A stretch of DNA of 64,000 bases from Hyphomicrobium sp. CS1BSMeth3. Lineage in GTDB: Bacteria; Pseudomonadota; Alphaproteobacteria; Rhizobiales; Hyphomicrobiaceae. Positions 9,910 to 62,833 of this stretch are shown piece after piece. Each line of letters starts with the position of its first letter. The stretch's first letter is position 1. Both the position numbers and the translations under genes were made by a program. The notes beneath the pieces were generated by a model that was given only the letters and a program-made list of their open reading frames with translations, had not been told where the DNA came from and did not search any database. The DNA is taken from NCBI RefSeq assembly GCF_900117415.1, contig NZ_FPEI01000004.1:434001-498000 (forward strand), in the 5' to 3' direction.

Positions 9910-10135
9910 TAGCTGTCGAGACGATTTTCAGGGCAAGGCCCCGGCTCGGCTCGACGACGAACAGCGCACGCGCGATCGATACCATCTGCATCTCGCTGCC
10001 CGAGAGGCTCTCGGCTTCTCGAAGCATGAGATATTCGATCGGCAAGAAGATCGAGAAGGTCGCGTCGATCACCCAGATGCGGAAAAACATCGTTTTGAGC
10101 GCAATACGCAGGTTTTTGGCGACTGTGAGCGTCGG
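9908..10135 (-). pseudogene. Degenerate LivF-type ABC ATPase fragment
   Basis: About 75 codons read like the middle of a branched-chain amino-acid transporter ATPase (LivF). LTVAKNLRIAL matches the TVxENLxxG segment. ESLSGSEMQMVSIARAL matches the LSGGEQQMLAIARAL signature with a Gly-to-Ser change. EPSRGLALKIV matches the EPSxGLAPxxV segment after Walker B, whose LLLD is deleted. Walker A and both gene ends are gone, so it cannot be functional. It is a leftover of a third ABC importer, presumably of the HAAT type, once located here. It slightly overlaps the 3' end of the plus-strand ATPase gene. Confidence 0.65.
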
Positions 10136-10653
10136 GCACTCAGCGCAATCTCGACTAGGACTTGCTCTGCTCCATGTGGGCGGCGGCCATGGCGCACATG
10201 CTCGTGAAATAGCAATCGTACTTCGGTAGATCTCCGAGGTGCATGGTCGCCCCGAAGCCCTCCTTCTCGTGCCGCCGATGGATCCAGCATGAGCGCAAAC
10301 GATGGGCGTTCGCAGGCTTGTGATCGTGAAACAGGCTCTCGGCGGTGTGCAAGATCTCAGCCTTTTGAATTCCGTTCCTGCCATCACCTCCGTCAAACAT
10401 TCGAAGTTCAGAGGGCCTGGCCAGTGCGATGCGAGAACCCGCGCGCCACCTTGGAAGCAAGCTCGACCACCGCTGATCAGCTCTTTCGCGCAGGATCTTC
10501 TTTGCCGGTTCTGTCGAGGCACGATATGCGGCGCTATTGATCACAGCCCGCGACACAAACAGATCAGCTCGCGTCAACAAGCCTACCGCTTGACACGCCT
10601 AATTGGGTTTGACACCATAATTGAAACATTGTGCCACATAGTGAAACACGAGC
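9910..10653. other. Non-coding stretch with gene remnants
   Basis: 744 bases between the ATPase and IclR genes. A decayed LivF lies at 9908-10135 on the minus strand. Immediately upstream of it, also minus, an open frame ending near 10155 (about 10155-10330) has a gene-like C-terminal end, around MHLGDLPKYDCYFTSM, that I cannot assign. The right end carries the repeats before the IclR gene. Confidence 0.5.
10590..10623 (+). promoter_or_regulatory. Tandem direct repeat before the IclR gene
   Basis: TTGACACGCCTAATTG (10590) and TTGACACCATAATTG (10609) repeat 19 bases apart, about two helical turns, 31 bases before the GTG start of the IclR regulator. Either copy could act as a -35 element or half of a tandem operator for autoregulation. 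Two GAAACA copies (10623 and 10643) follow. Confidence 0.4.
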
Positions 10654-43857: not shown

Positions 43858-44457
43858 CTATCTCACTGTCTCACAACCGTACTCGGCGAAGGCAGCAAGC
43901 AACGCCTTCCAAAGGCTCAGCCCATACGAGCGGGAAGCGGTAATCTCGTAAGTCGGGCCTTCGTCGGTCTGCCAAATCTGGACAGGCATGCGGACGGCCA
44001 CAGTTGAGGCGGCAGAGCCGACGCAGAATGCATCTTCGTGAAGATCGATCGGCAATAGCTTCATCAGGCCATCGCGCGCGCGAGTTCCACTTATGCGCAC
44101 AACCGTGCGCGATCCCGTGAGGTCCGTGACGTAGCCCGACTCGCCGACACATGAAGCGAGCCTGGGCAGAAGTTCGCCGGATGCGCCTCCGACAACCAGC
44201 CATTGATGGCGCCCAGAACAGACGAATGCCGTCGTGCCATGCGCGCTACGACCGGGGCGCAGCGGAAGTGCCGCGCCGAACTCACGTTCCACCGCCGCAC
44301 GAAAGCCGTCGATATCGGCGCCTCGAGCCGCCAGCGACGCAAGTCGCAAGCCACCTAGCTCGGTGAGCGTAACACCGGGCGTTCCGGCAGCACCGTGGTG
44401 GCTCGGCATTGCAACGGTCGCGAGTGCCGACCGCCGCGCTAGAATGGGCTCAAGCAC
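43858..44457 (-). CDS. soxG: Sarcosine oxidase gamma subunit
   Basis: 199 residues from a GTG at 44457, which has GGGAGG eight bases upstream and overlaps the soxA stop; an ATG at 44514 would lie deep within soxA. Gamma-subunit features include GVTLTELGGLRLASLAARG, WLVVGG and YVTDLTGSRTVVRISG, resembling a GcvT-like half domain. It is the structural subunit of the tetrameric enzyme and last in the soxBDAG operon. Confidence 0.85.
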   Translation of the reverse strand: MLEPILARRSALATVAMPSHHGAAGTPGVTLTELGGLRLASLAARGADIDGFRAAVEREFGAALPLRPGRSAHGTTAFVCSGRHQWLVVGGASGELLPRLASCVGESGYVTDLTGSRTVVRISGTRARDGLMKLLPIDLHEDAFCVGSAASTVAVRMPVQIWQTDEGPTYEITASRSYGLSLWKALLAAFAEYGCETVR

Positions 44458-47434: not shown

Positions 47435-47718
47435 GGGACGGCGACCTCTGACGAGGTATGGGCGGCGTCGCGCGCCGGCTCGGTCTTCAGCACCTCGTGC
47501 GTGCGGGTGTCGCGCGTCACGATCAGCCAGCTACGGCATCCGAAGCTGTGGTGCCACAGTTCGCGATGGGCGCCGGCAGGATTGGTGCGCTCGTACACAT
47601 ACGCGGTCCACTGTTCGGCTGGCGCGTCATGGTGCGAGGGGCGCACGGGATCGGCGCTCCCGAGATACACGAACTCGTCGTTGCCGCGCGATCCGCAGTA
47701 AGGGCAGGTCAGGCGCAT
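47431..47718 (-). CDS. soxD: Sarcosine oxidase delta subunit
   Basis: 95 residues from ATG 47718. The zinc site uses Cys5 and Cys8 in CPYCGSRGNDEF and a later His and Cys in WHHSFGCRSW. This small subunit is typical of the heterotetrameric enzyme. Starts 13 bases after soxB and overlaps soxA by ATGA. Confidence 0.95.
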   Translation of the reverse strand: MRLTCPYCGSRGNDEFVYLGSADPVRPSHHDAPAEQWTAYVYERTNPAGAHRELWHHSFGCRSWLIVTRDTRTHEVLKTEPARDAAHTSSEVAVP

Positions 47719-47731
47719 CGGGACATCTCTC

Positions 47732-48982
47732 TCAGTGGAGGTTCGGCACGGCGCCCTTGCCACCTTCGTCGATGACGTGACCGCTGGCGAAGCGGTCTAG
47801 GCGATAGGCGGCATTGAAGGCGTGCGGCTGGCCGGTGGCTATCGTGTGTGCGAAACACCAGCCCGAGGCCGGCGTCGCCTTGAAGCCGCCGTAGCACCAG
47901 CCGGCGTTGAGGTAGAGGCCCTCGATCGGCGTCCGGTCGATGATGGGCGAGCCGTCCATGGACATATCCATGATGCCGCCCCACTGGCGCAGGTAGCGTA
48001 GGCGGCCGAGCGATGGAAAGAGCGCCAGCGCACAGCTCATCACGTCTTCGACGATCGGCAGGCTCCCGCGCTGTGCGTAGGAATTGTAGCCGTCGATGTC
48101 ACCGCCGAATACCAGCCCGCCCTTGTCGGACTGGCTGATGTAGAAGTGCGCAGCCCCGAACGTGACGACCTGATCGATCAGCGGCTTCACGCCCTCAGAG
48201 ACGAAAGCCTGGAGCACATGGCTCTCAATCGGCAGGCGCATGCCCGCCATCGCCGCGAGCCGCGACGAGTTGCCGGCCACCGCCAGCCCTATTCGCTTTG
48301 CGTGGATCGTGCCGCGCGTGGTCTCGACGCCGATGATCCGGCCGCTCTCGATACGTAGTCCGGTGACCTCGCAGTTCTGGATGATATCGACGCCGCGACG
48401 ATCCGCGGCGCGCGCATAGCCCCAGGCGACCGCGTCGTGGCGGACGGTGCCGCCGCGGCGCTGGAGAAGACCGCCTTTGACGGGAAAGCGCGGATTATCG
48501 AGATCAAGCAGCGGATGCAGCCGTCGCACCTCATTGGGGCCGAGCAGCTCGGCATCGACGCCATTCAGGCGCATGGCATTGCCGCGGCGCGCGAACGCAT
48601 CGCGCTGGCCGTCGGAATGAAACAGGTTCAACACGCCGCGCTGAGACACCATGGCGTTGAAATTGATGTCCTGCTCCAGCCCTTCCCAGAGCTTAAGCGA
48701 CCACTCGTAGAACGGCGTGTTGCCCGGCAGCAGATAGTTGGAGCGGATGATTGTCGTGTTGCGGCCGACATTACCGGAGCCGATGTAGGCCTTCTCCAGG
48801 ACCGCGACGTCCGTGATCCCGTGCTCCTTGGCCAGAAAATAGGCCGTAGCCAGACCATGCCCACCACCACCGATGATGATGGTGTCGTAGGAAGGCTTGG
48901 GCTGGGGATCACGCCAAGCCGGCGACCAGTGGGTATTGCCCGAAAGCGCATTTCGGAGGAGCGCCGCAAGCGAGTATTGCAT
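47732..48982 (-). CDS. soxB: Sarcosine oxidase beta subunit
   Basis: 416 residues. FAD-binding GGGGHGLATAYFLAKEHG (38-55). The region TVRHDAVAWGYARAA carries His182, at the position of the His that bonds FMN covalently in the beta subunit. C-terminal GGFKATPASGW and FNAAYRLDRF are typical. It holds the sarcosine-oxidising flavin site. First gene of soxBDAG; its promoter lies in the 83 bases shared with the GlxA-type regulator at 49066. Confidence 0.95.
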   Translation of the reverse strand: MQYSLAALLRNALSGNTHWSPAWRDPQPKPSYDTIIIGGGGHGLATAYFLAKEHGITDVAVLEKAYIGSGNVGRNTTIIRSNYLLPGNTPFYEWSLKLWEGLEQDINFNAMVSQRGVLNLFHSDGQRDAFARRGNAMRLNGVDAELLGPNEVRRLHPLLDLDNPRFPVKGGLLQRRGGTVRHDAVAWGYARAADRRGVDIIQNCEVTGLRIESGRIIGVETTRGTIHAKRIGLAVAGNSSRLAAMAGMRLPIESHVLQAFVSEGVKPLIDQVVTFGAAHFYISQSDKGGLVFGGDIDGYNSYAQRGSLPIVEDVMSCALALFPSLGRLRYLRQWGGIMDMSMDGSPIIDRTPIEGLYLNAGWCYGGFKATPASGWCFAHTIATGQPHAFNAAYRLDRFASGHVIDEGGKGAVPNLH

Positions 48983-49065
48983 GGCTGGAGGCTCGGGTTT
49001 GGGCAGACCGCATGGAAAGCGGGCTTGTCACGGAGCGCAAATCTGGCACGATCCGCTGGACGGTC

Positions 49066-50115
49066 ATGACCCAGAGCGACTTTTTCTTGAGCAAGAGCGA
49101 CTCTCTCAGGAGGCGGGGCGCGCCCCGAAAGGATCCCGCCTCGAACGGTTCCGGCGCTGCCGCTGCGGAGGCGGAGCCCTACCGCATCGGCTTTCTGCTC
49201 GTGCCAGGCTTCGCCCTCATGAGCTACAGCTGCGCCATGGAGCCCTATCGCGCGGCGAATACCCTCTCGGGTCGCGAACTCTATCGCTGGAAGCATGCTT
49301 CGCCCGACGGCAAGCCTGTCGCTGCCTCCAATGGCGTGGCCATAGTGCCGGATCAGGGTCTCGAGACCCCGCTCGACGTGGACGATCTCTTCATCTGCGC
49401 GGGCGGCAATCCTACGCTCTTCAATTCGGCTGCGACGCTCGCGTGGCTGAGAGCGCAGAGCCGCCGCGGCACGCGCATGGGTGGCGTCGCCGGTGGACCG
49501 GTTATTCTCGGCCGGGCCGGCCTTCTCGATGGCTACCATTGCACGATGCACTGGGAATACATACCAGCGTTCCGCGAGAGCTTCCCGAACCACGCGGTCA
49601 CCAGCACGCGTTACGAAATCGATCGCAATCGCTGCACCAGTGCCGGTGGTACGGCTGCCTTCGACATGATGCTTTCCCTGATCAGCCGACGTCACGGGCG
49701 TGAGTTGGTGAGTGCAGTCAGCGAATGGTTCCTGCACACGCGATTGGGGCTGAGCCCGGAGCCGCAGCGCATGTCGCTCCGCGACCGGTACGGGGTCAGC
49801 CATGCCCCACTTCTCAGCGTCCTCGAGCATCTCGAGGCCGCGCCCGAGGACGCGCCGAGCCGGCGAAACCTCGCCGAGTCGGCCGGAATTTCCGTGCGTC
49901 AACTCGAGCGCCTGTTCCAGAGCAATCTCGGCTGCACGATCGGTCAGCACACGGCCTCTCTTCGCCTCGAGCGGGCGCGCATGCTGCTGCGGCAGACGTC
50001 GCTCTCGGTGCTCGAGGTGGCAGTTGCGAGCGGCTTCAACAGTGCCGCGCACTTCTCAAGGGCCTACCGGGGGCGCTATGGCTATCCACCGCGGTCGGAA
50101 CGCAAACAGGCGTAG
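49066..50115 (+). CDS. GlxA/AraC-family transcriptional regulator
   Basis: 349 residues from ATG 49066 (an in-frame ATG at 49012 would add 18 residues). The N-terminal DJ-1/PfpI-like domain (about 38-205) has FLLVPGFALMSYSCAMEP and GGVAGGPVILGRAGLL, where the amidotransferase Cys is absent, as usual in GlxA-type regulators. The C-terminal double helix-turn-helix (about 260-345) holds LAESAGISVRQLERLFQSN and GFNSAAHFSRAYR. This subfamily includes the glycine-betaine and sarcosine regulators GbdR and SouR of Pseudomonas. Divergence from soxB strongly suggests a sarcosine-responsive activator here, perhaps also of the downstream importer. Confidence 0.92.
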   Translation: MTQSDFFLSKSDSLRRRGAPRKDPASNGSGAAAAEAEPYRIGFLLVPGFALMSYSCAMEPYRAANTLSGRELYRWKHASPDGKPVAASNGVAIVPDQGLETPLDVDDLFICAGGNPTLFNSAATLAWLRAQSRRGTRMGGVAGGPVILGRAGLLDGYHCTMHWEYIPAFRESFPNHAVTSTRYEIDRNRCTSAGGTAAFDMMLSLISRRHGRELVSAVSEWFLHTRLGLSPEPQRMSLRDRYGVSHAPLLSVLEHLEAAPEDAPSRRNLAESAGISVRQLERLFQSNLGCTIGQHTASLRLERARMLLRQTSLSVLEVAVASGFNSAAHFSRAYRGRYGYPPRSERKQA

Positions 50116-50211
50116 TGGTGGCAGTGTCGCCACCAGTCAAGAAGGCGTCGGTGCGGAGCAAACCGCGACACTGAGTGCACTGCATCTTTGACAGGTGGCG
50201 ACACCGTCGCC
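50116..50211. promoter_or_regulatory. Repeat-rich leader before the peptide importer operon
   Basis: TGGTGGCAGTGTCGCCACCA (50116-50135) is a hairpin with a 7-base stem directly after the regulator stop. GGTGGCGACACCGTCGCC (50194-50211) carries the same 11 bases, GGTGGCGACAC, in the opposite orientation plus its own GGCGAC/GTCGCC stem. A further GCGACACT lies near 50165. The set forms a 130-base leader before the binding-protein start at 50246 and may be an operator cluster, a terminator-like structure, or both. Confidence 0.5.
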
Positions 50212-50245
50212 GTGGCGCGTCCCGCGATGCAACGGAGTGGATGAA

Positions 50246-51841
50246 ATGATTGCCCGCCTTCGTACGATTGCCATCGCATCCGCAGTGTTTGCCGCCTTTT
50301 CGGTCGGTGTTCCGCCAGCGGAGGCTCAAACTCCGAAGCGCGGCGGCACGCTCATCGTCGCTCTCGAGAACGAGCCACAGGCGCTGGCGCCGCATCTAAC
50401 GACCGACACGCCGACGTTCACGACCGTCTCCAACGTCTACAACACCCTCGTCCTGCTGGATGAGAAGCTCGGCATCATTCCCGATCTCGCGAAGAGCTGG
50501 ACGGTCTCGCCCGATGGTCTGGTCTACACCTTCGAGATCGTCGAGAACGCGAAGTGGCACGATGGCAAGCCGCTCACCTCGGACGATGTCGAGTACAGCT
50601 TCAACGAGCTGATCTCGAAAAACCATCCCCGCGCCGGGACCTGGTGGAACAACGTCGCCTCCGCCAAGGCGACAGGAAAGTACACCTTCGTCTTCACGCT
50701 GAAAGCGCCTTACGTGCCGTTCCTCTCGGTGCTGGCGAGCCCGCTCGCGAGCGGCGCCTTCATCATGCCGAAGCACGTCTATGAGGGCAAAGACCCGAAA
50801 ACCAATGCGGCCAACCAGGCCCCGATCGGCAGCGGACCGTTCAAGTTCGTGCGCTGGCAGCGTGGCAGCCACGTCGAGCTCGTCCGCAACGATCAGTACT
50901 GGAAGGAGGGCAAGCCGTATCTCGATCGTCTGGTGCTACAGATCATGCCGGACGCGGCCGCGCGTTTCCTTGCCTTCGAGCGCGGCGAAGTCGACTTCCT
51001 GCACTGGTACATCGTTCCCTATGATCAGGTTGCCAAGCTGCGCAAGGACAAGCGCTTCCAGCTCCTCAGCCGAGGCGATGCAGCGGGTACCAACGGCCTG
51101 ATGCTCATGAACCATCGCCACTCGGTCCTGAAGAACGTAAAGGTCCGCCAGGCGCTGGCCCATGCGATCAACCGCGAGACCATCAATCAGCGAGCGCTCT
51201 TCGGCGAGGCCAAGGTCGCGCGCAGCCACGTTTCAAGTAACGTCGCCTGGGCGTTTACGGATGAGTACGACTACAAGCTCGATCCCGCACTCGCCAACAA
51301 GCTCCTCGACGAGGCAGGGTTCCCCCGCGGCGCAGACGGCAAGAGGTTCCCGCTGCGCCTGTTCTGGGCCGCTGGACGCGACTACGAAGGCCGCGGCGCC
51401 GAGATCATCAAGGACAACCTGCGCGACCTCGGCATCGACGTGACGGTTCAGGTCTTCGATCGCGCCTCGTTCACTGATCGCGTGTTCCGCCAGTGGGAAT
51501 TCGATCTGGCGATGCAGCTCTTCACGACCGGTCCCGACCCCACGTTCGCCGTTACCGCGCGGTATCACACGAAGCAGATCCTCAAGGTGCCGTTCGTCAA
51601 CGGCATGGGCTACTCGAACCCCGAAGTGGACGCGATCTTCGATACCGAGTTCAAGGAGGCGGATGTCGCCAAGCGCGCGGCCATGTGGCGCGACATCCAG
51701 AAGATACTCATGCACGATCTGCCGGCGCTTCCCTTGTTCGAGCTCCCGGCGATCCATGCCGCCTCGGCGAAGTTCAAGGACGTGGTCACCGGTCCGCAGG
51801 GCTACATCGAGTCCCGCGAAAGCGCTTACGAGATCAAGTGA
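50246..51841 (+). CDS. Periplasmic peptide/oligopeptide-type binding protein (SBP family 5)
   Basis: 531 residues from ATG 50246 (GGAG eight bases upstream). Signal peptide to about residue 27 (PPAEAQ). The mature family 5 fold shows LTSDDVEYSFNEL, GPFKFVRWQRGSHVELVRN and VRQALAHAINRETINQ. It captures peptides or similar solutes for the DppBCDF proteins encoded next. The sarcosine-oxidase and dipeptidase-like neighbours suggest an N-methylated amino acid derivative or peptide as ligand, which is inference. Confidence 0.9.
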   Translation: MIARLRTIAIASAVFAAFSVGVPPAEAQTPKRGGTLIVALENEPQALAPHLTTDTPTFTTVSNVYNTLVLLDEKLGIIPDLAKSWTVSPDGLVYTFEIVENAKWHDGKPLTSDDVEYSFNELISKNHPRAGTWWNNVASAKATGKYTFVFTLKAPYVPFLSVLASPLASGAFIMPKHVYEGKDPKTNAANQAPIGSGPFKFVRWQRGSHVELVRNDQYWKEGKPYLDRLVLQIMPDAAARFLAFERGEVDFLHWYIVPYDQVAKLRKDKRFQLLSRGDAAGTNGLMLMNHRHSVLKNVKVRQALAHAINRETINQRALFGEAKVARSHVSSNVAWAFTDEYDYKLDPALANKLLDEAGFPRGADGKRFPLRLFWAAGRDYEGRGAEIIKDNLRDLGIDVTVQVFDRASFTDRVFRQWEFDLAMQLFTTGPDPTFAVTARYHTKQILKVPFVNGMGYSNPEVDAIFDTEFKEADVAKRAAMWRDIQKILMHDLPALPLFELPAIHAASAKFKDVVTGPQGYIESRESAYEIK

Positions 51842-51872: not shown

Positions 51873-52853
51873 GTGCCGACCAAGTCGCTCCTGATCTATG
51901 TCGGTGGCCGCCTTCTCCAGGCGGTTCCGATCATGTTCGTGATCATCCTCATCAACTTCGCGCTCATTCATGCCGCGCCGGGCGATCCGGTGGACATCCT
52001 CATCGGCGGCGCGGATGCCACGCCGGAATACATCGAAGGTCTGCGCCGTGAGTTCGGTCTCGATCAGCCGCTGTGGCAGCAGTTCGTCACCTACATCAGC
52101 AAGATCGTGCAATTCGATCTCGGCTACTCGCTGCGCTACCGAGAGCCGGTGCTCTCGCTCATTCTCGGGCGGATGCCGGCGACGCTGCTGCTGATGGGCA
52201 CGGCGCTGTTCTTCTCGAGCCTCATCGGCATCCTGCTCGGCGTGTTCGCTGCGCGCCGGCCCTACTCGGTGGGGGACTATACAGCAACCTTCGTGTCGCT
52301 CGCTGGATACTCGATGCCAGTGTTCTGGCTCGGGCAGATCATGCTCGTCATCTTCGCGCTGCATCTGGCATGGTTCCCCACCCAGGGCATGTACAGCCTG
52401 CGTGCGCCGTCGCAGGGGTTCGGCCGCATTCTCGACGTCGCGCACCATCTCGTGCTGCCGGCCATCACCTACAGCTTCTATCACCTCGCGCTGATCTATC
52501 GCCTGACCCGGATCAAGATGCAGGAGGTGCTGGCGCTCGACTTCATCACGACAGCGCGCGCCAAGGGCGTCGCGGAGGGACGGGTCGTCTATCGGCACGC
52601 GCTGCGCAACGCCATCCTTCCGGTCGTCACGGTGATCGGTCTCAACTTCGGCTTCATGCTTGCGGGCTCCGTGCTGACCGAGACCGTATTCGCGTGGCCG
52701 GGCATGGGCCGCCTGCTCTACGAGGCCGTCGGCGCGCGCGATTATCCCGTTCTCATGGGACTTTTCACCGTGCTTTCGGTGATGGTGATCTGCGCAAACG
52801 TCATCACCGACGTCGTGTATGCGCTGGTCGATCCGCGCGTGGTCTACCGGTAG
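51873..52853 (+). CDS. Peptide-type ABC permease, DppB-like
   Basis: 326 residues, GTG start at 51873 with AGGTGA upstream. Six membrane segments, N-terminal MFVIILINFALIHAAPGDPV typical of DppB, and the EAA-like loop around FITTARAKGVAEGRVVYRHA. It forms the channel with the next gene product. Confidence 0.92.
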   Translation: MPTKSLLIYVGGRLLQAVPIMFVIILINFALIHAAPGDPVDILIGGADATPEYIEGLRREFGLDQPLWQQFVTYISKIVQFDLGYSLRYREPVLSLILGRMPATLLLMGTALFFSSLIGILLGVFAARRPYSVGDYTATFVSLAGYSMPVFWLGQIMLVIFALHLAWFPTQGMYSLRAPSQGFGRILDVAHHLVLPAITYSFYHLALIYRLTRIKMQEVLALDFITTARAKGVAEGRVVYRHALRNAILPVVTVIGLNFGFMLAGSVLTETVFAWPGMGRLLYEAVGARDYPVLMGLFTVLSVMVICANVITDVVYALVDPRVVYR

Positions 52854-52857
52854 GCCC

Positions 52858-53715
52858 ATGACAACGATCACCCACATACCGGCTGAGCCAAGCTGGTGGC
52901 GCATCTTCAGCCGGAATCGCGGATCGGTAGTCGGCGCAGTCGTTCTTGTCGTGCTGTTCGCGCTCGCCATCGTGGCGCCGATGCTGTTGCGCTTCGAAGC
53001 CGGGCGCATCGATGTCGGGCCCAGCATGGCGCCGCCCAGCCTCGTTCACCTCATGGGCACCGACGAACTCGGCCGCGATGTCTTTGCCCGTGCCGCCGCC
53101 GGCTTGAGCGTATCGCTCATGGTCGGCTTCGGCGCTGCGACCATATCCACGTTCCTTGGCGTCGTGATCGGGGGACTCGCGGGATTCTTCGGTCGCAGTA
53201 TCGACGCACTGCTCATGCGCCTGACCGAGATCTTCCAGGTCATTCCGCGCTTCTTCCTCGCCGTGCTGCTGGTCGCCTTCTTTGGCGCGAGTATTTTCAA
53301 CATCCTGATCGCCATCGCGGTGCTGAGCTGGCCCGAGATCGCGCGCCTCGTCCGCGGCGAGTTCCTGAGCCTGCGCTCGCGCCAATTCGTCGATGCCGCC
53401 CGCGTCGCCGGCGCGTCGCGCACGAGCCTGATCTTCGGCGAGATCCTGCCGAACGCGCTCGGCCCGGTGGTCGTCAACGCGACACTGATGGTTGGACAGG
53501 CCATGCTTTTGGAAGCCGGATTGAGCTATCTCGGCCTCGGCGATCCGACCAAGGCGAGCCTTGGACAGATGCTGCAGGAGGCGCAACAGATCATGCGCTC
53601 GGCCTGGTGGACGACGGCCTTTCCCGGGATGTTCATCTTCCTCGCCGTGCTGAGCCTCAACCTGGTTGGTGACGGCCTCACCGACGTCCTCAATCCCAGG
53701 GCCCGGGGGCGGTGA
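52858..53715 (+). CDS. Peptide-type ABC permease, DppC-like
   Basis: 285 residues from ATG 52858, four bases after the DppB-like stop. About six membrane segments. MGTDELGRDVFARAAAGLSV and the EAA-like loop FVDAARVAGASRTSLIFGEI are characteristic of DppC. Its stop overlaps the next start as TGATG. Confidence 0.92.
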   Translation: MTTITHIPAEPSWWRIFSRNRGSVVGAVVLVVLFALAIVAPMLLRFEAGRIDVGPSMAPPSLVHLMGTDELGRDVFARAAAGLSVSLMVGFGAATISTFLGVVIGGLAGFFGRSIDALLMRLTEIFQVIPRFFLAVLLVAFFGASIFNILIAIAVLSWPEIARLVRGEFLSLRSRQFVDAARVAGASRTSLIFGEILPNALGPVVVNATLMVGQAMLLEAGLSYLGLGDPTKASLGQMLQEAQQIMRSAWWTTAFPGMFIFLAVLSLNLVGDGLTDVLNPRARGR

Positions 53716-54704
53716 TGAGCAAGCCGCTTCTGACTGCCACGAACCTCGTCACGAAGCTGTTTACCGACAGCGGCACAGTACAGGCCGTCGATGGTGTGTC
53801 GCTCCACATTGGTCACGGCGAGGCCGTCGCACTCGTCGGCGAATCCGGCTGCGGCAAGAGCATGACGGCGCTCTCCCTGATGCGGCTGGTGCGCCCTCCG
53901 GGCCAGATCGTTTCCGGCAGCGTGAACTTCGATGGCGCTGATCTTCTCTCCCTCTCCGAGCGGGAGATGCGCGCGGTGCGCGGCGGCCGCCTGGCGATGG
54001 TCTTCCAGGACCCGATGACGTTTCTCAATCCGCTGATGCGTGTCGGCGAGCAGATCGTCGAAGCCATCATGCTGCATCAGCGCGTCGGCAGCAGCGAGGC
54101 ACGGCGAACTGCGCTCGAAGCATTGGAGCGCGTCGGCATTCCGGCTGCAGCAACGGTCATCGAGTACTTTCCCCATCAACTCTCGGGCGGCATGCGCCAG
54201 CGCGTGCTGATCGCGATGGCGATCTCGTCGAAGCCGACGCTTCTGATCGCCGACGAGCCGACAACCGCGCTCGACGTCACGATCCAGGCGCAGATCATGC
54301 GGCTGCTGGCAAAGCTCCGCGGCGAGCTCTCCTCGTCGATGCTGCTGATCACGCACGACCTCGGCCTCGTCGCCGAGTATTGCGATCGCGTCTACGTCAT
54401 GTATGCGGGGCGGATCGTCGAGGAAGGCGATGTCTACGGCATCTTCGCCAATCCGCGCCATCCCTATACGCGCGCGTTGCTCAGCTCGACGCTCTCGCCC
54501 GATCGACGCATCGAGAAGCTCGCGCCCATCGATGGCCAACCGCCCAATCTCATCACACCGCCGCCGGGCTGCCGCTTCCATCCGCGCTGCCGCGAGCGCA
54601 TGGCGCGATGCTCGGAAGAAGCGCCGCCCAACTTCGACATCGCCCCGGGCGCCTCTGCTCGTTGCTGGCTCTATGAGGAGGCTGCACGTGTCGGCGCTCC
54701 TTGA
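53715..54704 (+). CDS. Peptide-type ABC ATPase, DppD-like
   Basis: 329 residues. Walker [11 protein letters not shown], signature [15 protein letters not shown], Walker [15 protein letters not shown]. The C-terminal oligopeptide-transporter extension has the Cys-bearing [15 protein letters not shown], which in related ATPases binds an iron-sulphur cluster. It drives import together with the following ATPase. Confidence 0.93.
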
Positions 54705-55719
54705 GATCCAGGATCTGGAAGTGCACTTCCCCGTCGGCGGGGGATGGTTCAGCGGTCCGCGCGCAGTCGTGCACGCGGTCGACGGCGTCGACCTCAGCGT
54801 CGAGCCAGGCGAGATCGTCGCCGTCGTCGGCGAAAGCGGATGCGGGAAGACGACACTGGCGCGGTCGGTTCTCGGGCTCAATCAACCGACCGCCGGCACC
54901 ATACGCTTCCGCGGAAAGGATGTGCGCGGCGCCCGGTCGGCACAGGAGATGCGCGCCTATCGCCGTGCCATCCAGATGATCTTCCAGGATCCGTTCGACT
55001 CACTCAATCCGCGCAAGACAGTCCTGCAGACGCTTGCCCAGCCGCTGCGCATACATGGCATCGTGCCGCGCAGCGAGATCCGCGCCGAAGTAGTCCGCCT
55101 GCTCAATCTTGTCGGTCTCAGCCCGGGCGAAAGCTATCTGGGCCGCTATCCGCATCAGTTCTCCGGCGGACAGCGCCAGCGCATCTGCATCGCCCGCGCG
55201 ATTGCACTGCGGCCGTCTCTGATCGTCGCCGACGAAGCGGTCTCTGCTCTCGACATCTCGATACGCGCTCAGATTCTTGCGCTTCTGCAGAAGCTGCGCA
55301 CCGATCTCGGTCTCAGCTATCTGTTCATCACGCATGACCTCGGCGTCGTGCGCTCCTTCTGCGAGCGCGTCGTCGTCATGTACCTCGGACATGTGGTCGA
55401 GGAGGGCCCGACCGAGCAGATATTCGAGCGCCCGCGACATCCCTATACGACGGCACTTCTCGAAGCCTGCCCGCTGGCCGACCCCATCGTCGCGCGGCGG
55501 CGAACGTCGGCACCACTGACGGGCGACATCCCCTCTCCCGTCAGGCCGCCGAAAGCATGCCGGTTCCACACGCGCTGCCCCATGGCGGAGGAAATATGCG
55601 GCACCGTCGCACCGCCGATCGTCGATTGCGGCAATGGACAGAAGTCCCGCTGCCACTTTGCCGGCGACCTCGACAGATGGCCCAAGTTCGACTTCAGTTC
55701 AGCGAAGGCATCCGCATGA
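54688..55719 (+). CDS. Peptide-type ABC ATPase, DppF-like
   Basis: 343 residues from GTG 54688, with GAGGAG seven bases upstream; it overlaps the DppD-like gene by 17 bases. Walker A GESGCGKTTLA, signature FSGGQRQRICIARAI, Walker B LIVADEAVSALDIS (the usual Pro after Asp-Glu is Ala). C-terminal KACRFHTRCPMAEEIC gives the Cys-rich tail. Its stop overlaps the PrpD-type gene by ATGA, linking transporter and enzyme genes. Confidence 0.92.
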   Translation: MSALLEIQDLEVHFPVGGGWFSGPRAVVHAVDGVDLSVEPGEIVAVVGESGCGKTTLARSVLGLNQPTAGTIRFRGKDVRGARSAQEMRAYRRAIQMIFQDPFDSLNPRKTVLQTLAQPLRIHGIVPRSEIRAEVVRLLNLVGLSPGESYLGRYPHQFSGGQRQRICIARAIALRPSLIVADEAVSALDISIRAQILALLQKLRTDLGLSYLFITHDLGVVRSFCERVVVMYLGHVVEEGPTEQIFERPRHPYTTALLEACPLADPIVARRRTSAPLTGDIPSPVRPPKACRFHTRCPMAEEICGTVAPPIVDCGNGQKSRCHFAGDLDRWPKFDFSSAKASA

Positions 55720-57083
55720 CGATCACCACGGCGCTCGCCCGGCATACGGCTGAAGCCTCCCGCATTTGGCCAGCGGAAGTCCAGCAGTCGGCGCTGCGTG
55801 CGGTGATCGATACATGTGCCTGCATGATTGCGGGGAGGAACGACGCTGCGGCCCGCACGATCTCCGCCACCTTGTCGCGCTGGCAAAGCGGAACTGCTGT
55901 CGATCTCGTCTCGCTCGAGCACACAGCTGCGCCCTGGGCGGCGATGGTGAACGCCACCGCAGCGCACGCGCTCGACTACGACGATGTTCTGGAGACGGCG
56001 GCAGCGCACGCGAGCGCCGTGTTCGTACCCGCTCTCCTAGCCCTCGCACAGGAACGCAAGGCATCGGGTGCGCAGGTGCTCGATGCACTCGCGATCTCGT
56101 TCGACGTGATGAACGCGCTCGCCGCCGCAGTGAACTACCCGCACTATTCTCGCGGCTGGCATACGACGCTGACGCTCGGCGCGCCCGCAGCCGCGGCCGG
56201 ATGCGCCCGCCTCCTAGGTCTCGATACGGCCGGCGCAGCGCGGGCGATCAGCACGGCCACGAGTTTCTCGAGCGGCAGCAAGCTGCAGTTCGGCACGCAG
56301 ATGAAGCCGACGCACGCGGGCATCGCCGCGCAGGCCGGTATTCTGGCGGCATCTTTCGCCGAGCAGGGTTTGACTGCTGCACCGGAAATCTTCGAAGGAC
56401 CATGGTCGTTCGAAACACTGTTCGGTGCAGAAGGCATGCCGGGCTTCAGGGTCGCCGAAGAGCGCTTGAAAGGTCCGCCGGCGCTGGCCGAGCCGGGTGC
56501 CTGGATCAAGGCCTATCCCTGCTGCGCGAGCGCGCACCGACCGATCGATGCCATGCTTCACCTACGGCAGAGCTCCGGTACTGCGGCGCGCGACATCGAG
56601 CGCGTCGACACCTACGTATCGACCGTCGTCCAGAAAAATCTCATGTACGAAGTCCCCCGCGACGAGATGGAAGGCCGCTTCAGCCTGAACCATTGTCTGG
56701 CTGCTGCCGCCTGTCGTGGGAGTGCCGATCTCGCAGACTTCACGCTCGAAGCCTTGGCTGATCCGGAGCTTATCGCTTTCTGGCCGAAGGTTTTCATGCA
56801 TCTGGATCCTGAGATCCCCGCGAACCTGGCTCCTGCCTCGGGTGAGGAGCGTTGCCGCCTCCGCCTGACGCTCACCGGCGGCAGGACGCTCGAGCACACT
56901 GTGGTGTTTCCAAGCGGCCATCCGCAGGCGCCCATGTCCGACGCCGACCTAGCACGAAAATTCAAGGATTGCGCTACGGGCGTCCTCGCGCCTGCTGCAA
57001 CCGATGCGGCACTCGATGGGCTGCTTTCGCTCCCGCACGCAAACGATGTCGATGCCGCGCTGAAAGCGCTCGTGCCCTCCTGA
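55716..57083 (+). CDS. MmgE/PrpD family protein
   Basis: 455 residues. Starts at ATG 55716 overlapping the previous stop. MmgE/PrpD features: ATAAHALDYDDVLETAAAH near residue 85, FSSGSKLQFGTQMKPTHAG around 185-203, and AYPCCASAHRPIDAM around 265-280. The family includes 2-methylcitrate dehydratase and iminodisuccinate epimerase (Ids)-like enzymes, so it may be a dehydratase, isomerase or epimerase of a carboxylate. No propionate pathway genes are near, so a methylcitrate role is unlikely. Confidence 0.9.
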   Translation: MTITTALARHTAEASRIWPAEVQQSALRAVIDTCACMIAGRNDAAARTISATLSRWQSGTAVDLVSLEHTAAPWAAMVNATAAHALDYDDVLETAAAHASAVFVPALLALAQERKASGAQVLDALAISFDVMNALAAAVNYPHYSRGWHTTLTLGAPAAAAGCARLLGLDTAGAARAISTATSFSSGSKLQFGTQMKPTHAGIAAQAGILAASFAEQGLTAAPEIFEGPWSFETLFGAEGMPGFRVAEERLKGPPALAEPGAWIKAYPCCASAHRPIDAMLHLRQSSGTAARDIERVDTYVSTVVQKNLMYEVPRDEMEGRFSLNHCLAAAACRGSADLADFTLEALADPELIAFWPKVFMHLDPEIPANLAPASGEERCRLRLTLTGGRTLEHTVVFPSGHPQAPMSDADLARKFKDCATGVLAPAATDAALDGLLSLPHANDVDAALKALVPS

Positions 57084-57140: not shown

Positions 57141-57926
57141 ATGGCCAACGATTTTCCCGTAGTGATCGGCATTTGCCTCGATGCCGAAGCCAGCTGGCTC
57201 GGACGCAATCCGGACAACATCCGGCGCCCGGTGCTGCTTTCGCACGGTACGTTCGCGATCCGCGAAGGTCTGGCACCACTGCTGGCCCTGCTGGATGAGA
57301 ACAAGATCCGCACGACCTTCTTCATTCCCGGCATCACGGCCGAGCGCTATCCCGAGGCCGTCAAGGAGATCGCGAAGCACGACCACGAGATCGCGAGCCA
57401 CACTTACGGTCATCGGTCAGTGCTCGTCATCAAGCCCGAGGAAGAGGAACCCGAGCTGGTCCGCGGCATCGAAGCGCTGGAGAAGATCACGGGCGTGAGG
57501 CCGACCACGTGGCGCTCGGCATCCTGGGAATGGAGTCCGCGCACGCTCCAGCTTCTGCTCGACCACGGCGTCAAGGTCTCGACCAACTTCCACGATCGCG
57601 TTCGCCCGTATCGCCATCAGCAGAACGGCAAGCCGACATCCGTCGTTGAGCTGCCGGTCCAGTGGCATCTCGCGGATGCGCCGTACTTCGTTTATGGCGG
57701 CGAGGTCGCGCGCACGATCCGCGTCGCCGGTGATGTGCAGACCATCTGGCAGGACGAATTCGACGGCCTCATGGAGTGGCCAGGCGCCTTCTATCACCTG
57801 ACGCTGCATGTCGAGCTGATCGGCCACCCCGGTCGCCTCCGCATGCTGGCGCGGCATCTCCAGTACCTCAAATCGCGCTCGGTGAAGTTCCTGACATCGG
57901 ACGAAATTGCGGCAACGGTAGCCTAA
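57141..57926 (+). CDS. Polysaccharide deacetylase-family hydrolase (PuuE/HpPgdA-like)
   Basis: 261 residues from ATG 57141, with AAAGGAA adjacent; a longer ATG at 57120 adds seven residues. NodB-type fold. ICLDAEASW supplies Asp14, and SHTYGH gives zinc ligands His87 and His91. It belongs to the cytoplasmic branch with PuuE allantoinases and HpPgdA-like proteins, which in several cases act on cyclic amides or imides rather than on sugars. There is no signal peptide. Placed between the PrpD-type and dipeptidase-like genes, it probably hydrolyses an amide of the imported solute. Confidence 0.85.
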   Translation: MANDFPVVIGICLDAEASWLGRNPDNIRRPVLLSHGTFAIREGLAPLLALLDENKIRTTFFIPGITAERYPEAVKEIAKHDHEIASHTYGHRSVLVIKPEEEEPELVRGIEALEKITGVRPTTWRSASWEWSPRTLQLLLDHGVKVSTNFHDRVRPYRHQQNGKPTSVVELPVQWHLADAPYFVYGGEVARTIRVAGDVQTIWQDEFDGLMEWPGAFYHLTLHVELIGHPGRLRMLARHLQYLKSRSVKFLTSDEIAATVA

Positions 57927-57961: not shown

Positions 57962-58942
57962 ATGACATCAAACATCCATTCTCGCTCCATCGTCATCGAC
58001 GGTCTCGTCGTCTCGCGCTGGAGCCGCAGCGTCTTCGAGCACATGCAGCGCGGTGGTCTCACCGCAGCCAATTGCACGTGCTGCGTCTGGGAGAATACGC
58101 GCAGTACTATGCAGAACATCGCCAACTGGAAGCGATGGCTGCACGAGCACAGCGACCTGATCATGCCGGTGAAGACGACGGCCGATATCAAGCGCGCCAA
58201 GGAAGCCGAGAAGGTCGGGATCATCCTCGGCTTTCAGAACACCGCCGCACTCGAAGACCGCCTCGATACGCTGCCCCTGTTCAAGGAACTCGGCGTCGGC
58301 GTCATCCAGATCACCTACAATACGCAGAACCTCGTCGGCAGCGGCTGCTGGGAGGAGAACGATGGCGGTCTCTCGGGCTTCGGCCGCGAAGTCATATCAG
58401 AAATGAACCGGCTCGGGATCCTCGTCGATCTATCGCACGTCGGCTCCAAGACCGCCGATGACGCAATCAAGTACTCGGCGCGCCCTTGCGCCTATTCGCA
58501 CGTCTGTCCGACCGGCCTCCTCGATCACCCGCGCAACAAGACCGACGAGCAGCTCCGCACGATCGTCAACAAAGGCGGCTTCGTCGGCGTCGCCACCTAC
58601 GCGCCATTCATGCCGAAAGGCGGCGCCTCGACGCTCGACGACTGCATCGACATGTTCGAGTACATGATCAACGTGTGCGGCGAAGGTAATATCGGCATCG
58701 GCACCGACTTCACCCAGGATCAGGACGAGGCCTTCTTCGATTGGCTCCGGCACGACAAGGGTTATGCACGCCGTATGGTACCCTCGCGCGGGACCGCGCC
58801 ATTAATCGCCGGACTAGAGAATCTCGCGCAATATCCTAATCTCACTCAGGCAATGGAGCGGCGCGGCTGGAGCGAGACCCGCATTCGCGGTGTCCTCGGC
58901 GAGAACTGGCTGCGGTTTCTTGGAGAAGTCTGGAGTGTTTAG
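57962..58942 (+). CDS. M19 membrane-dipeptidase homologue lacking metal ligands
   Basis: 326 residues. M19 fold recognised from ILVDLSHVGSKTADDAI, DHPRNKTDEQLRTIV and GVLGENWLRFL. Renal-dipeptidase ligands are only partly kept: His159 (LSH) and His180 (YSH) remain. The N-terminal HxD pair is Leu15/Val17 (IDGLVVSRW), and the bridging-Glu segment reads GFQN. It is therefore unlikely to hold the binuclear zinc site of a dipeptidase. M19-like genes are also found near dimethylglycine/sarcosine catabolism genes in Pseudomonas, so a shared non-dipeptidase role is possible. It ends the operon that starts at 50246. Confidence 0.87.
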   Translation: MTSNIHSRSIVIDGLVVSRWSRSVFEHMQRGGLTAANCTCCVWENTRSTMQNIANWKRWLHEHSDLIMPVKTTADIKRAKEAEKVGIILGFQNTAALEDRLDTLPLFKELGVGVIQITYNTQNLVGSGCWEENDGGLSGFGREVISEMNRLGILVDLSHVGSKTADDAIKYSARPCAYSHVCPTGLLDHPRNKTDEQLRTIVNKGGFVGVATYAPFMPKGGASTLDDCIDMFEYMINVCGEGNIGIGTDFTQDQDEAFFDWLRHDKGYARRMVPSRGTAPLIAGLENLAQYPNLTQAMERRGWSETRIRGVLGENWLRFLGEVWSV

Positions 58943-59028: not shown

Positions 59029-59760
59029 TGACCGAGGTACAGGCCGCGGCGCATGGCTATGCCGATGTCGGAGTGCCGTACTACACTACGTGACGGCGGG
59101 AAGCGGTCGGTCGCGCAGACATTTAGGGTTTGGTCCACGACAAGCTCGGCCACCGCCAGTTTTATCTAGCCGGTCACGACTGGGGCGGCCCAACCGCATC
59201 GCGCTAGCGACCGCCCACCGGGCGGCCGTTCGCCGCTTGGCGATCATGGATGTTATTCCCGGCGACGGCGGCGACTTCAGCCGAGGCGGCCTGCGTTGGC
59301 ACCACCATTTCCATAAGACGCCGGATCTGCCGGAAGCACAGGTGCAACGCCGCGAGGACATCTATCTCGGCTTGTTCTATCGTACCTTCGCGTTCCGGCC
59401 GGATGCGACGGGGCCGGACGACGTGGCGGAATATCTGCGCACCTACCGCCAACCAGGAGCGATGCGGGCGAGCTTTGAATTCTACCGTGCTTTCGAACGC
59501 GACGCCGCGGACAACGTGGCCGAGATCGCAGCAAACGGCCCGCTTGCGATGCCAGTGCTCGCGATCGGCGGCGGCGTGGACTACCCGCATTCGCGCAGCC
59601 GCGGCACCGAGCCCGAACAATCACTGCGACGGGTCGCAACAAACGTGCGCGGCATTGTCATTCCCGACTGCGGCCACCAGGTTCCCGAGGAGCAGCCCGA
59701 TATTCTCGCCGACGCGCTCGAACGCTTCTTCGCGGAGGACAAGTCCCGAGGCAGATCGGT
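59029..59760 (+). pseudogene. Alpha/beta-hydrolase (epoxide hydrolase/dehalogenase-like) pseudogene
   Basis: An ATG at 59029 opens HGYADVGVPYY and stops at 59091. A shifted frame then gives VTAGSGR, the usual next segment. The sequence that should carry the oxyanion HGFP motif is deleted. A third frame holds HRQFYLAGHDWGG, the nucleophile elbow with Asp. After another shift, the cap and C-terminal half continue intact from about 59190 (RIALATAHRAAVRRLAIMD ... VIPDCGHQVPEEQPD, with the catalytic His). At least two frameshifts and an internal deletion of about 70 codons make it non-functional. An open frame from 59090 to 59995 covers the C-terminal part but runs on past the homology. Confidence 0.8.
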
Positions 59761-59898
59761 CACGCAACTGCTTTGGTCGTGTCAAGGAACGCCAGCAGCC
59801 CCGGCCTCTATGCGCGCGTCGATATCCTCGCTGTCAGCCAACCGCGCGCATGGCACCCTAGTTGAGTTTCACTACTGCAAACCAAGGCCTGTCTCCCG

Positions 59899-61101
59899 TT
59901 ACTTTCCTCCAAGCGGCGCGTTGGCTCTGGCGAGTTCGAGGCCTTCTCGCGCGAGCAGGGTTAGTTGGCCGCGCGTCTCGACGGCTTCCATGTAGTCGTG
60001 CTCGAAGTTCGGGTAATCGGGCGTCGTGATGACGAAGGCGTCCTCTTTCATCCAGCGGTCGAAGCGGCGGTTGTAGGCGCGCTCGGCAGCGAGCCTGTCA
60101 GCTGGCGAGCGACCGGCATTGTGGGCGTATCCGGGTGGGATCGGCGTCTTGCGGCACAGCCCCGTGAATTCCTGGAAGCGCGCGACCTCGGCATTGCGAG
60201 GTATCTTTGGCTCGGGCGACTTCATAACGTTCCGCCAGCTGCGGATAATGCGCGATGCTCGGCGGCAGGCGCTGCGCGTGTGCCCACGGTCGGCGGCCGC
60301 CTCCAGCCAGCCGTCCTCAGACCTCTCCCGGATGCGCGCAGCGAGTGCGCCGCCGCCTAGACTGTCACCTAGCCTCGAGAGCTGGCTGTAACCGAGGAGC
60401 GCGGAGATCTCGCCCGCTGCCTCGGCCGCCGCGAAGTGCTGCATAGCCGCCTCGGCGAGCTTCGGGAAGATGTTGCGGAGCCCAGAAGCATCAACTTCGC
60501 CGGCGGCGGCGCGGGTGACCACCGTCGCCAGCTTGAAGCCCGCGTGCAAATGCTCGTCGGGATCCCCGCCGGCGGTCGCGATGCGGGCAGCCTCGATCAA
60601 GCGCTCACCGGGATTGTCGACTTCGATCACCCGACCCGAAGTCTGTCCATCCGCCTTGGCTAGGCAATCCTCGAGGTACGAGGCAGCGAGGCGATCACCG
60701 GCCGCGATCAACGCCTCGAGCTCACCCGCGCGACGCCGGTTGTTGTCGCGCCCCGAGTTCCGGCAGGCGTATGTGGTGGCAAGCAGAATGTTGAGCCGAG
60801 CTCGCACCAGGCCGAGCCGGGCCGCGCGCCCGAACAGCCGCGCAGCCTCCGCGCCGTCCCTGTCGACGCCCTTGCCGCGATACTTGAGCACCGCGAGGTT
60901 GTTGAGCGCGACCGCATCATCGCTCTCGCCGAGGCGCGCATAGATCTCCGCCGCCTCGGCGATATCGTTGTTGGCAAGCAGCGCCCGTGCGCGGCCATGC
61001 TCAGCGCCGAGCGGGTGCGACGGCACGAGCGCCATGAACAATAGCGCGGCGACGCACACTACGGCGAGCGTCGCGACGGCAAGCCTGATCGCATCACTCA
61101 T
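59899..61101 (-). CDS. Membrane-anchored Sel1-like repeat protein (paralogue 2)
   Basis: 400 residues. An N-terminal membrane anchor (about 5-27) precedes helical repeats; VALNNLAVLKYRGKGV and GAEAARLFGRAARLGLVRAR at about 58-95 form a recognisable Sel1 unit. The C-terminal part (about 290-400) is unassigned, with a short His/Pro-containing stretch. It resembles the gene 27 bases upstream in layout (anchor, NNLAVL, one Cys-bearing NL...Y.C segment). Sel1 repeats mediate protein binding, often in envelope or secretion complexes. No function is assigned. Confidence 0.75.
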   Translation of the reverse strand: MSDAIRLAVATLAVVCVAALLFMALVPSHPLGAEHGRARALLANNDIAEAAEIYARLGESDDAVALNNLAVLKYRGKGVDRDGAEAARLFGRAARLGLVRARLNILLATTYACRNSGRDNNRRRAGELEALIAAGDRLAASYLEDCLAKADGQTSGRVIEVDNPGERLIEAARIATAGGDPDEHLHAGFKLATVVTRAAAGEVDASGLRNIFPKLAEAAMQHFAAAEAAGEISALLGYSQLSRLGDSLGGGALAARIRERSEDGWLEAAADRGHTRSACRRASRIIRSWRNVMKSPEPKIPRNAEVARFQEFTGLCRKTPIPPGYAHNAGRSPADRLAAERAYNRRFDRWMKEDAFVITTPDYPNFEHDYMEAVETRGQLTLLAREGLELARANAPLGGK

Positions 61102-61128
61102 GGCGCTGCTCCGACTGGTTCCGCGGTC

Positions 61129-62217
61129 TCATGGATTGAGGGACTTGATGAAACGCACTTCCTCGAGCAGCCGCTTGACGGCGTGCCAAGTCGGTGGCGG
61201 CACCGGCTCCTTGAGGGTGCGCGGCTGGTACGCGAGATAAATCTTGTCAAACCTCCGTACGGACCGGGGCGGCCGCCGATCGAGGCAGTCGTGAGCCTCA
61301 TCGACGGCGGAGTTGTATTGCTCGGCACTCGTCTTGGGCCTGCTGCGGATGCGCGAGAGGCTGTCCTCGGCCATCCGGCAGACCGTATTCCAGTCACCCA
61401 CTGCAGCAGCAGTGCCCACCCACTGTGAATGCGTTCGCGCGCGAATGGCCACGGACATCGCGTCGTTCCCAAGGTAACCGGAGAACTCCTGCGAAATGGC
61501 ACCGATCCATTCGTAGGCTTCAGGCCGGCCGCGCCCGGCGGCAGCAAACAGCAGCTGCTTTGACTTTTCGATGAGCGGCGCCACGGCGCGGTCGTAGTCA
61601 GCGCGCTCCTGGTCGGTGCTCGGCTGGCGCGTCGTGCGTGCGAAATCGAGAATGGTCCGGCCGGCCTTGAGCAACAGGTCGGGTGAGCCCGCTGCCAGGA
61701 TGTCGTCAGCGACCGCTGTCAGCGTCTCGGTCACATCGGCGATCTTTTGGCGGGCCTCAATGAAATAGAGGCAATCGAGCAGCTGCGAGGCGGCGACCAT
61801 GTCGCCCTCACCGGCGAGATCGCGCAGCATCAGCGAGGCACGTGCGTTGTTGCTGGTGTTGAAGCGGCAGCGGCCGTACTGGACCGTGACGAGATTTAGC
61901 TTGGCGCGCGGAAGGCCATTTGCCGCCGCGCCGTGCAGTAGTTGCTCCGCGACCCGAAGCTCATCAGCCGATCGAGCCTGGCGATAGATGAGGACGGCGA
62001 GGTTGTTCTGGGCGATCGGGTCGCCGGCATTGGCGAGCGGACGGAGCAGCCAGTGGGCGATGAACGGCCGCTCGGATTGAACCGCCCTGTCGGCCCAGTC
62101 GCGAATGGTGTTCGGCGCAACGACGAAGGCAAGAAAATAGGGCAGAAGCGCGAGCGCGATGATGCCGCCAACGGCAGCGGCGAGAACGATGGTAAGCAGC
62201 CGGCGCGACTTCCACAT
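61129..62217 (-). CDS. Membrane-anchored Sel1-like repeat protein (paralogue 1)
   Basis: 362 residues from ATG 62217; an in-frame GTG at 62235 is an alternative, and neither has a strong ribosome site. The N-terminal membrane anchor is LLTIVLAAAVGGIIALALL. Helical repeat region includes IAQNNLAVLIYRQARS and ANGLPRAKLNLVTVQYGRC, closely matching the layout of the next gene. The C-terminal 150 residues (RAVAPLIEKSKQLLFAAAGR and beyond) look helical and are unassigned. It probably forms an envelope protein pair with the downstream paralogue. Confidence 0.72.
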   Translation of the reverse strand: MWKSRRLLTIVLAAAVGGIIALALLPYFLAFVVAPNTIRDWADRAVQSERPFIAHWLLRPLANAGDPIAQNNLAVLIYRQARSADELRVAEQLLHGAAANGLPRAKLNLVTVQYGRCRFNTSNNARASLMLRDLAGEGDMVAASQLLDCLYFIEARQKIADVTETLTAVADDILAAGSPDLLLKAGRTILDFARTTRQPSTDQERADYDRAVAPLIEKSKQLLFAAAGRGRPEAYEWIGAISQEFSGYLGNDAMSVAIRARTHSQWVGTAAAVGDWNTVCRMAEDSLSRIRSRPKTSAEQYNSAVDEAHDCLDRRPPRSVRRFDKIYLAYQPRTLKEPVPPPTWHAVKRLLEEVRFIKSLNP

Positions 62218-62833
62218 TGTTCTGCCCACGGCCACGAGTTGTCAGAGCAAATGGATTTCCGTCTATGCCTCTCGACGCTATGTGAGAACCACTTAGGAGT
62301 TCGTTGCGCATTGTCACGCTCGAACACAAGTCATTGGACATGGTGACGGCGAGATTAATGCCAATCTCAGGATCGTACGGCGGTGCGCGGAACGCACCGG
62401 CTCGGCCGCGGAAGTCAAAAGAAGATTAGCTTGGGCGTTCCCGAGACCTTGATCTCGCTTGATTGCCGTTCGGTTGCTTCAACTCGCGGAGCACGCCGAA
62501 GGTGGGCGCGCCGAAGCCGTTGGCCCAGACGTGCGTCTGGCGGTCATGCAGGGCAAGCTGAGCTCTTTCGCCGAATTGGTTTGCATTGTGTAGCCGTTGT
62601 CGCGCGGGCGTGGCCGCCGCTACGGCATCGATCATAAGCGGCAATACCAGATGGGCCGTTGATGACGCGCGATCAGCATTTGATCATGCCTAGGAGGAAG
62701 CAGAACGCGCGGCCGGTCGGCCGCGCTTCCACGCCCGCTATCGTCAGTACGGAAAATGATCCAGGCTGCCTAGTGGTGGCGCTGCATCGCATGAGAAATG
62801 CGCGCCTGACCACATTGGCGCTCGATGCCCAAA
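62218..62833. other. Gap without a recognised gene
   Basis: 616 bases upstream of the Sel1-like pair and downstream of the Cys-rich peptide gene. Short frames on both strands (such as 62426-62644 minus) have no recognisable family. It must contain the promoter of the pair, but no clear -35/-10 was singled out. Confidence 0.5.

Follow-up and report, generated by a model that had tools for sequence, protein, structure and literature searches.

The window analysed here is the whole stretch of 64,000 nucleotides from Hyphomicrobium sp. CS1BSMeth3, and the gene of interest encodes a member of the M19 (renal dipeptidase) family that lacks most of the metal ligands of that family. It lies in an operon with genes for an ABC transporter, an MmgE/PrpD family protein and a deacetylase-family protein. 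The genes and features of the region, each with its position and strand in the window, are as follows.

43858-44514, minus strand: soxG, sarcosine oxidase gamma family (PF04268)
44450-47434, minus strand: soxA, sarcosine oxidase alpha family (TIGR01372, over cut-off)
47431-47718, minus strand: soxD, sarcosine oxidase delta family (TIGR01374, 105.1 bits against a cut-off of 116.5)
47732-48982, minus strand: soxB, heterotetrameric sarcosine oxidase beta family (TIGR01373, over cut-off)
49012-50115, plus strand: GlxA/GbdR-like AraC-family regulator with a DJ-1/PfpI domain (best NCBIfam model GbdR)
50195-51841, plus strand: family 5 solute-binding protein (PF00496), whose start is perhaps slightly downstream
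51873-52853, plus strand: ABC permease 1 (profile match to BPD_transp_1)
52819-53715, plus strand: ABC permease 2 (open reading frame with an uncertain start codon; gene order as in the relatives' loci L006-L008)
53712-54704, plus strand: first oligopeptide/dipeptide-type ABC ATPase (profile match)
54688-55719, plus strand: second oligopeptide/dipeptide-type ABC ATPase (open reading frame, clustered with ABC ATPases)
55716-57083, plus strand: MmgE/PrpD family protein, for which the nearest solved structure is iminodisuccinate (IDS) epimerase
57141-57926, plus strand: PuuE-like protein of the polysaccharide-deacetylase family (PF01522), whose PDB relatives include PuuE allantoinase; adjacent to the M19 gene in L006, L007 and L008
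57962-58942, plus strand: ligand-poor M19 gene (Q-type, 326 amino acids), assigned by Pfam M19 and residue alignments

The M19 reading frame begins with an ATG at 57962 and its stop codon ends at 58942, and these coordinates are exact. Only 36 bp separate it from the deacetylase-family gene on the same strand. Further upstream, the start of the MmgE/PrpD gene overlaps the stop codon of the second ATPase gene by four bases (ATGA). The soxBDAG genes (43858-48982, minus strand) and the GbdR-like gene adjoin this operon, with the sox genes located divergently upstream. The regulator scores 331.7 bits with the GbdR model, which is below the cut-off of 480. Directly 3' of the M19 gene is the remnant of an epoxide-hydrolase-type alpha/beta hydrolase (59090-59800, plus strand), wherein approximately 170 C-terminal residues match solved structures and the N-terminal part is absent. 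Beyond this, two adjacent proteins of similar appearance are encoded on the minus strand (59899-62235), and the first of these has a weak Sel1-repeat match.

Membership in the M19 family is indicated by both sequence and fold. The protein matches Pfam Peptidase_M19 (PF01244) over profile positions 36-318 with an E-value of 3.4e-84 and 283 bits, compared to a cut-off of 26. An AlphaFold2 (AF2) model built from an alignment of 34 sequences has a pLDDT of 93, and its fold matches those of the solved structures 2i5g, 1itq and 3id7. The closest of these is 2i5g from Pseudomonas aeruginosa (E-value 7e-121; TM-score 0.96-0.97), whereas the TM-score to canonical dipeptidases is about 0.8. The M19 fold is therefore intact, as an earlier sequence-only reading of this DNA had proposed when it described the rest of the fold as well kept.

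Canonical M19 proteins in the alignment carry the pattern H.D, E, H, H, H, R, D. Within the same class, H.D is present in all 13 canonical sequences with a readable N-terminus, the Glu in 15 of 16 and the His at the next site in 14 of 16. In the window protein, L15 and V17 occupy the His-x-Asp site of strand 1, Q92 replaces the bridging Glu, and Y119 replaces the pocket His that we take to be His152 of human DPEP1. The retained residues are H159 and H180, which form the beta-site His pair, R191, the Arg that binds the substrate carboxylate, and D249 of strand 8. An active dinuclear zinc dipeptidase would carry the HxD pair and the bridging Glu, neither of which is present here, in addition to the His pair, Asp and Arg, which are. 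Thus, the loss of ligands is confirmed. The sequence-only reading was correct that two of the five ligands remain (His159 and His180), that the N-terminal pair is Leu/Val and that GFQN stands at the position of the bridging Glu. What it had missed is that R191 and D249 are also retained and that one more canonical His has become Tyr.

The altered site is not a peculiarity of this one gene. Relatives were fetched from a collection of 84,980 genomes, and every close relative carries this ligand-poor pattern, with the dinuclear ligand set absent from all of them. All 121 ligand-poor relatives carry Q92, H159, R191 and D249, whereas H180 and Y119 each occur in 119 (98%). Because the columns of Q92 and Y119 served to delimit the clade, the conservation of these two is partly circular. 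The columns of H159, H180, R191 and D249 were not used, and these four rank among the 11 most conserved of the 326 positions. In addition, the clade has gained Q92, Q116, Y119, N120, E131, D134 and P183, wherein Q116, N120, E131, D134 and P183 are nearly specific to it; of these, E131 and D134 each occupy their position in 98% of its members but are rare in canonical M19 proteins. The window protein shares the clade motifs G(F/W)QN, YNTQN, DLSHVG, HPRNK and GTDFTQ, and it groups in the tree with 2i5g and the dipeptidases of dgc operons.

This tree was built by a quick method with the metal-ligand and Tyr119 columns excluded, and the position of some long rows is unsure. It places the ligand-poor sequences apart from canonical M19 proteins (94% SH-aLRT) and the window protein within a subclade of 52 rows (99% SH-aLRT). 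One sequence labelled canonical (L172), whose N-terminus is incomplete, falls among the ligand-poor rows. Comparisons of the window gene with five relatives give dN/dS values of 0.20-0.31. The possibilities that the substitutions are peculiar to the window protein or are signs of decay are ruled out by the alignments with 34 and 121 relatives and by these dN/dS values. A pocket that is fixed throughout the clade and under purifying selection leads us to expect a working altered site rather than a decaying gene, which supports the earlier suggestion of selection for another function. Judged from the sequences compared, the ligand-poor clade is an ancient M19 subfamily with a rewired pocket.

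Other departures from the canonical site were also encountered. A second wide group (GFQN/YNNQ/SHANP), found within the order to which the window belongs, is likewise ligand-poor. A third group keeps the His of HxD and the Glu but not the Asp. Its members (L175, L177, L179, L180, L183, L185, L188 and L191) form one clade in the tree, carry the Glu together with Tyr-Asn and, where the N-terminus is complete, have Cys, Gly or other residues in place of the Asp. This third group is a possible intermediate of ligand loss. The window genome also encodes a tandem pair of ligand-poor M19 proteins (L054:8421-9374 and 9384-10361; C2:388429-390354), and L044 carries the same pair. The first copy has lost His180 as well (FFAQT) and has Phe in place of Tyr119, so at least one member of the clade seems not to depend on the His pair.

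The gene neighbourhoods of the relatives are diverse. The order of ABC transporter, PrpD, deacetylase and M19 genes is shared by L006, L007 and L008, with a second M19 gene between those for PrpD and the deacetylase in L006. An FAD enzyme of the monomeric sarcosine-oxidase type is encoded next after M19 in L007 and L008. In Azospirillum, soxBDAG is followed by an M19 coding sequence that overlaps soxG. Burkholderiales have the order glyA-M19-DUF5943-dgcA-dgcB, accompanied by etf genes and by a ring-hydroxylating oxygenase as in gbcA, and in Bradyrhizobium and Tardiphaga sdaA, glyA, purU, a branched-chain-type ABC transporter, M19 and DUF5943 stand in a row. Overall, the most common neighbour is DUF5943, a family with a weak V4R match, which is found beside 27 of the 67 flanked relatives and mostly starts right after M19. 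However, a DUF5943-V4R protein can be ruled out as an obligatory partner in the window genome, in which a profile search gave no match to DUF5943 or to DgcB (PF11982). The same search finds DUF5943 where it is known to occur, and it likewise gave no DUF5943 match in the genomes of L006, L008 and L047. Transporters beside other relatives are of the branched-chain amino-acid, TRAP, betaine, polyamine-type and MFS kinds.

Several of these neighbourhoods are located on plasmids. Paracoccus plasmids keep genes for an MFS transporter, DUF5943-V4R and M19 together, and on the 95 kb plasmid pKON1 of Paracoccus kondratievae (L064) this trio is found among several IS elements, which suggests that it may move as a unit. 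On plasmids of Phaeobacter and Aminobacter (L101 and L102), M19 is clustered with genes for an aldehyde dehydrogenase, DUF3726, Ldh_2 and a 563-residue protein without a Pfam match. These clusters are near BCCT or glycine betaine ABC transporters, and that of Phaeobacter is also near soxA and soxG. Their make-up suggests operons for the breakdown of a methylated nitrogen compound. The homarine operon, on which PMC13390433 cites a key paper, is a lead only for the source of these clusters.

The association with demethylation genes was evaluated in several ways. Genes for sarcosine or dimethylglycine demethylation are near 23 of the 67 flanked relatives compared to none of 16 canonical M19 genes (Fisher p 0.004), and of the genomes that encode a close relative 9 of 10 have SoxA, compared to about 35% of the others (p 0.0007), although both p-values are optimistic because the loci tested are related to each other. 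In the class-wide sample alone, sox genes are within 11 kb of 1 of 12 flanked relatives versus 0 of 15 (p 0.44), which rules out the idea that the M19 gene is always tied to sox or dgc. Most relatives in that sample are instead found beside genes for hydantoinase A/B, branched-chain ABC transporters, TRAP transporters, MFS transporters or URO-D, and at one locus (L152:5315-9977) hydantoinase A, hydantoinase B and a ligand-poor M19 gene form a row. With soxBDAG alongside, the window gene has the demethylation neighbourhood of the 2i5g/dgc clade, which only part of that clade has, and it lacks the adjacent DUF5943-V4R gene that is common but not universal there.

The pseudomonad dgc operon is documented to hold an M19 homologue that is co-expressed with dgcAB and gbc genes (PMC8079746, PMC10963909), and the Vibrio natriegens homologue is pepD (PMC12093977). 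The earlier suggestion of a link to N-methylglycine catabolism is therefore supported with respect to neighbourhood, given soxBDAG and the GbdR-like gene in the window, the dgc and sox operons of relatives and this pseudomonad homologue, but the link is not an exclusive one. The association is real for several lineages and is not universal. Given the single case among the 12 class-wide relatives, the link to sarcosine may be one of several uses of the clade.

The rewired and conserved pocket, together with an operon beside genes for N-methylglycine breakdown, indicates that the window protein is probably a repurposed catabolic enzyme and not a peptidase. We give roughly even chances to a more specific version, in which it is a working enzyme, other than a dipeptidase, that uses one beta-site metal or none and acts on an N-substituted amino-acid derivative. 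Its catalysis, metal content and substrate class are all inferred. The alpha-metal site (His-x-Asp) has been erased and the bridging Glu converted to Gln, while both His of the beta site, the Asp of the barrel and the Arg that grips the substrate are retained, and Tyr-Asn and Glu/Asp have been newly fixed, putatively near the pocket. The adjacent peptide-type ABC transporter might import a small N-substituted amino acid or a related amide, imine or ureide. Perhaps the M19 protein then works on this compound in the cytoplasm, together with the PuuE-like and PrpD-like proteins, to give sarcosine or another N-methyl amino acid that would be passed to the neighbouring SoxBDAG.

The absence of the dinuclear site and the pocket His could instead reflect the loss of catalysis, such that the protein would support or regulate the demethylation enzymes as their partner, or sense a ligand for them, for example with the DUF5943-V4R protein. 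The frequency of DUF5943 among the neighbours and the tandem paralogue without His180 would suit this role, and a large conserved pocket is compatible with ligand binding in a non-catalytic protein. However, a scaffold would have no need of H159, R191, D249 and Q92, the residues on which conservation in the clade is strongest. Likewise, the pocket stays constant while the transporter types vary, and the genomes without a DUF5943 match indicate that this partner is dispensable. The conservation of the pocket and the absence of a DUF5943 match from the window genome weaken the case for a pseudoenzyme, which we consider rather unlikely.

Less probable still is a complete alternative metal site, formed by the His pair and Asp249 plus E131, D134, Y119 and Q92, in a metallo-hydrolase that might even be a dipeptidase for N-methylated peptides such as sarcosine dipeptides. 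The near-fixation of E131 and D134 in the clade and their rarity in canonical M19 proteins favour this, the Arg for the substrate carboxylate is retained and the window transporter is of the oligopeptide type, but the varied transporters of relatives argue against peptides as the general substrate. Finally, the Pfam class Peptidase_M19 and the automatic annotation of relatives as 'dipeptidase' would favour an ordinary M19 dipeptidase, or else a decaying paralogue without special function. This is very improbable, since the ligand set is absent in all close relatives and the rewired pocket is conserved under purifying selection.

The clade as a whole might constitute an undescribed catabolic class, although we advance this only tentatively. 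Its members would be M19 barrels without a dinuclear site, with one metal or none, that catalyse a missed step common to the pathways for glycine betaine, dimethylglycine, sarcosine and other N-methylated nitrogen compounds, such as N-acyl, N-formyl or imine/enamine hydrolysis. To our knowledge, every known step from glycine betaine to glycine already has an enzyme, and thus the textbook pathway leaves no gap that a further catalytic step in dgc operons would have to fill. The altered site is present in many proteins annotated as 'dipeptidase' or 'membrane dipeptidase' across Alpha-, Beta- and Gammaproteobacteria, including the product of the pseudomonad glycine betaine operon gene, for which our literature search found no role. 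If the pocket is catalytic, then the catabolism of N-methyl amino acids includes a step or repair reaction that has escaped notice, and if it is not, then the dipeptidase annotations mislead. In both cases, the residue pattern provides a simple rule for the re-annotation of such genes.

Comparisons with known systems place the protein more precisely. Human DPEP1 (1itq), SCO3058 (3id7), GliJ (5lwz) and Lmo2462 (3neh) share its fold, beta-site His pair, Arg and Asp, but the HxD, bridging Glu and pocket His of these enzymes are replaced in the window protein, and identity over the fold alignment is only 17-24%. Escherichia coli NagA and other mononuclear amidohydrolases lack the HxH pair, and a single beta-site metal suffices for them. 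This likeness is one of analogy only, and the site of the window protein, where even the Glu ligand that NagA keeps is Gln, may be free of metal. The 'membrane dipeptidase' of the Pseudomonas dgc operon (PP_0308) has the same operon position as the M19 genes of the Burkholderiales operons found here, whereas the window genome has no DgcB (PF11982) or DUF5943 match and its M19 gene is linked to soxBDAG instead.

The closest solved structure is 2i5g, an 'amidohydrolase' of P. aeruginosa released in 2006, which is presumably PA5396. A literature search for function papers on PA5396, 2i5g or DUF5943 found none. Among the sequences compared here, 2i5g is nearest to members of dgc operons (88% to L095 and 70% to L098), whereas the window gene resides in its ABC-PrpD-deacetylase operon by soxBDAG. 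Where 2i5g has NCTVSVWE, the window protein has NCTCCVWE. However, the two proteins are 53% identical and share L/I at the HxD site, GFQN, YNTQN, both His, the Arg and the Asp. The window protein thus adds a member to a clade that is already known and for which a structure has been solved.
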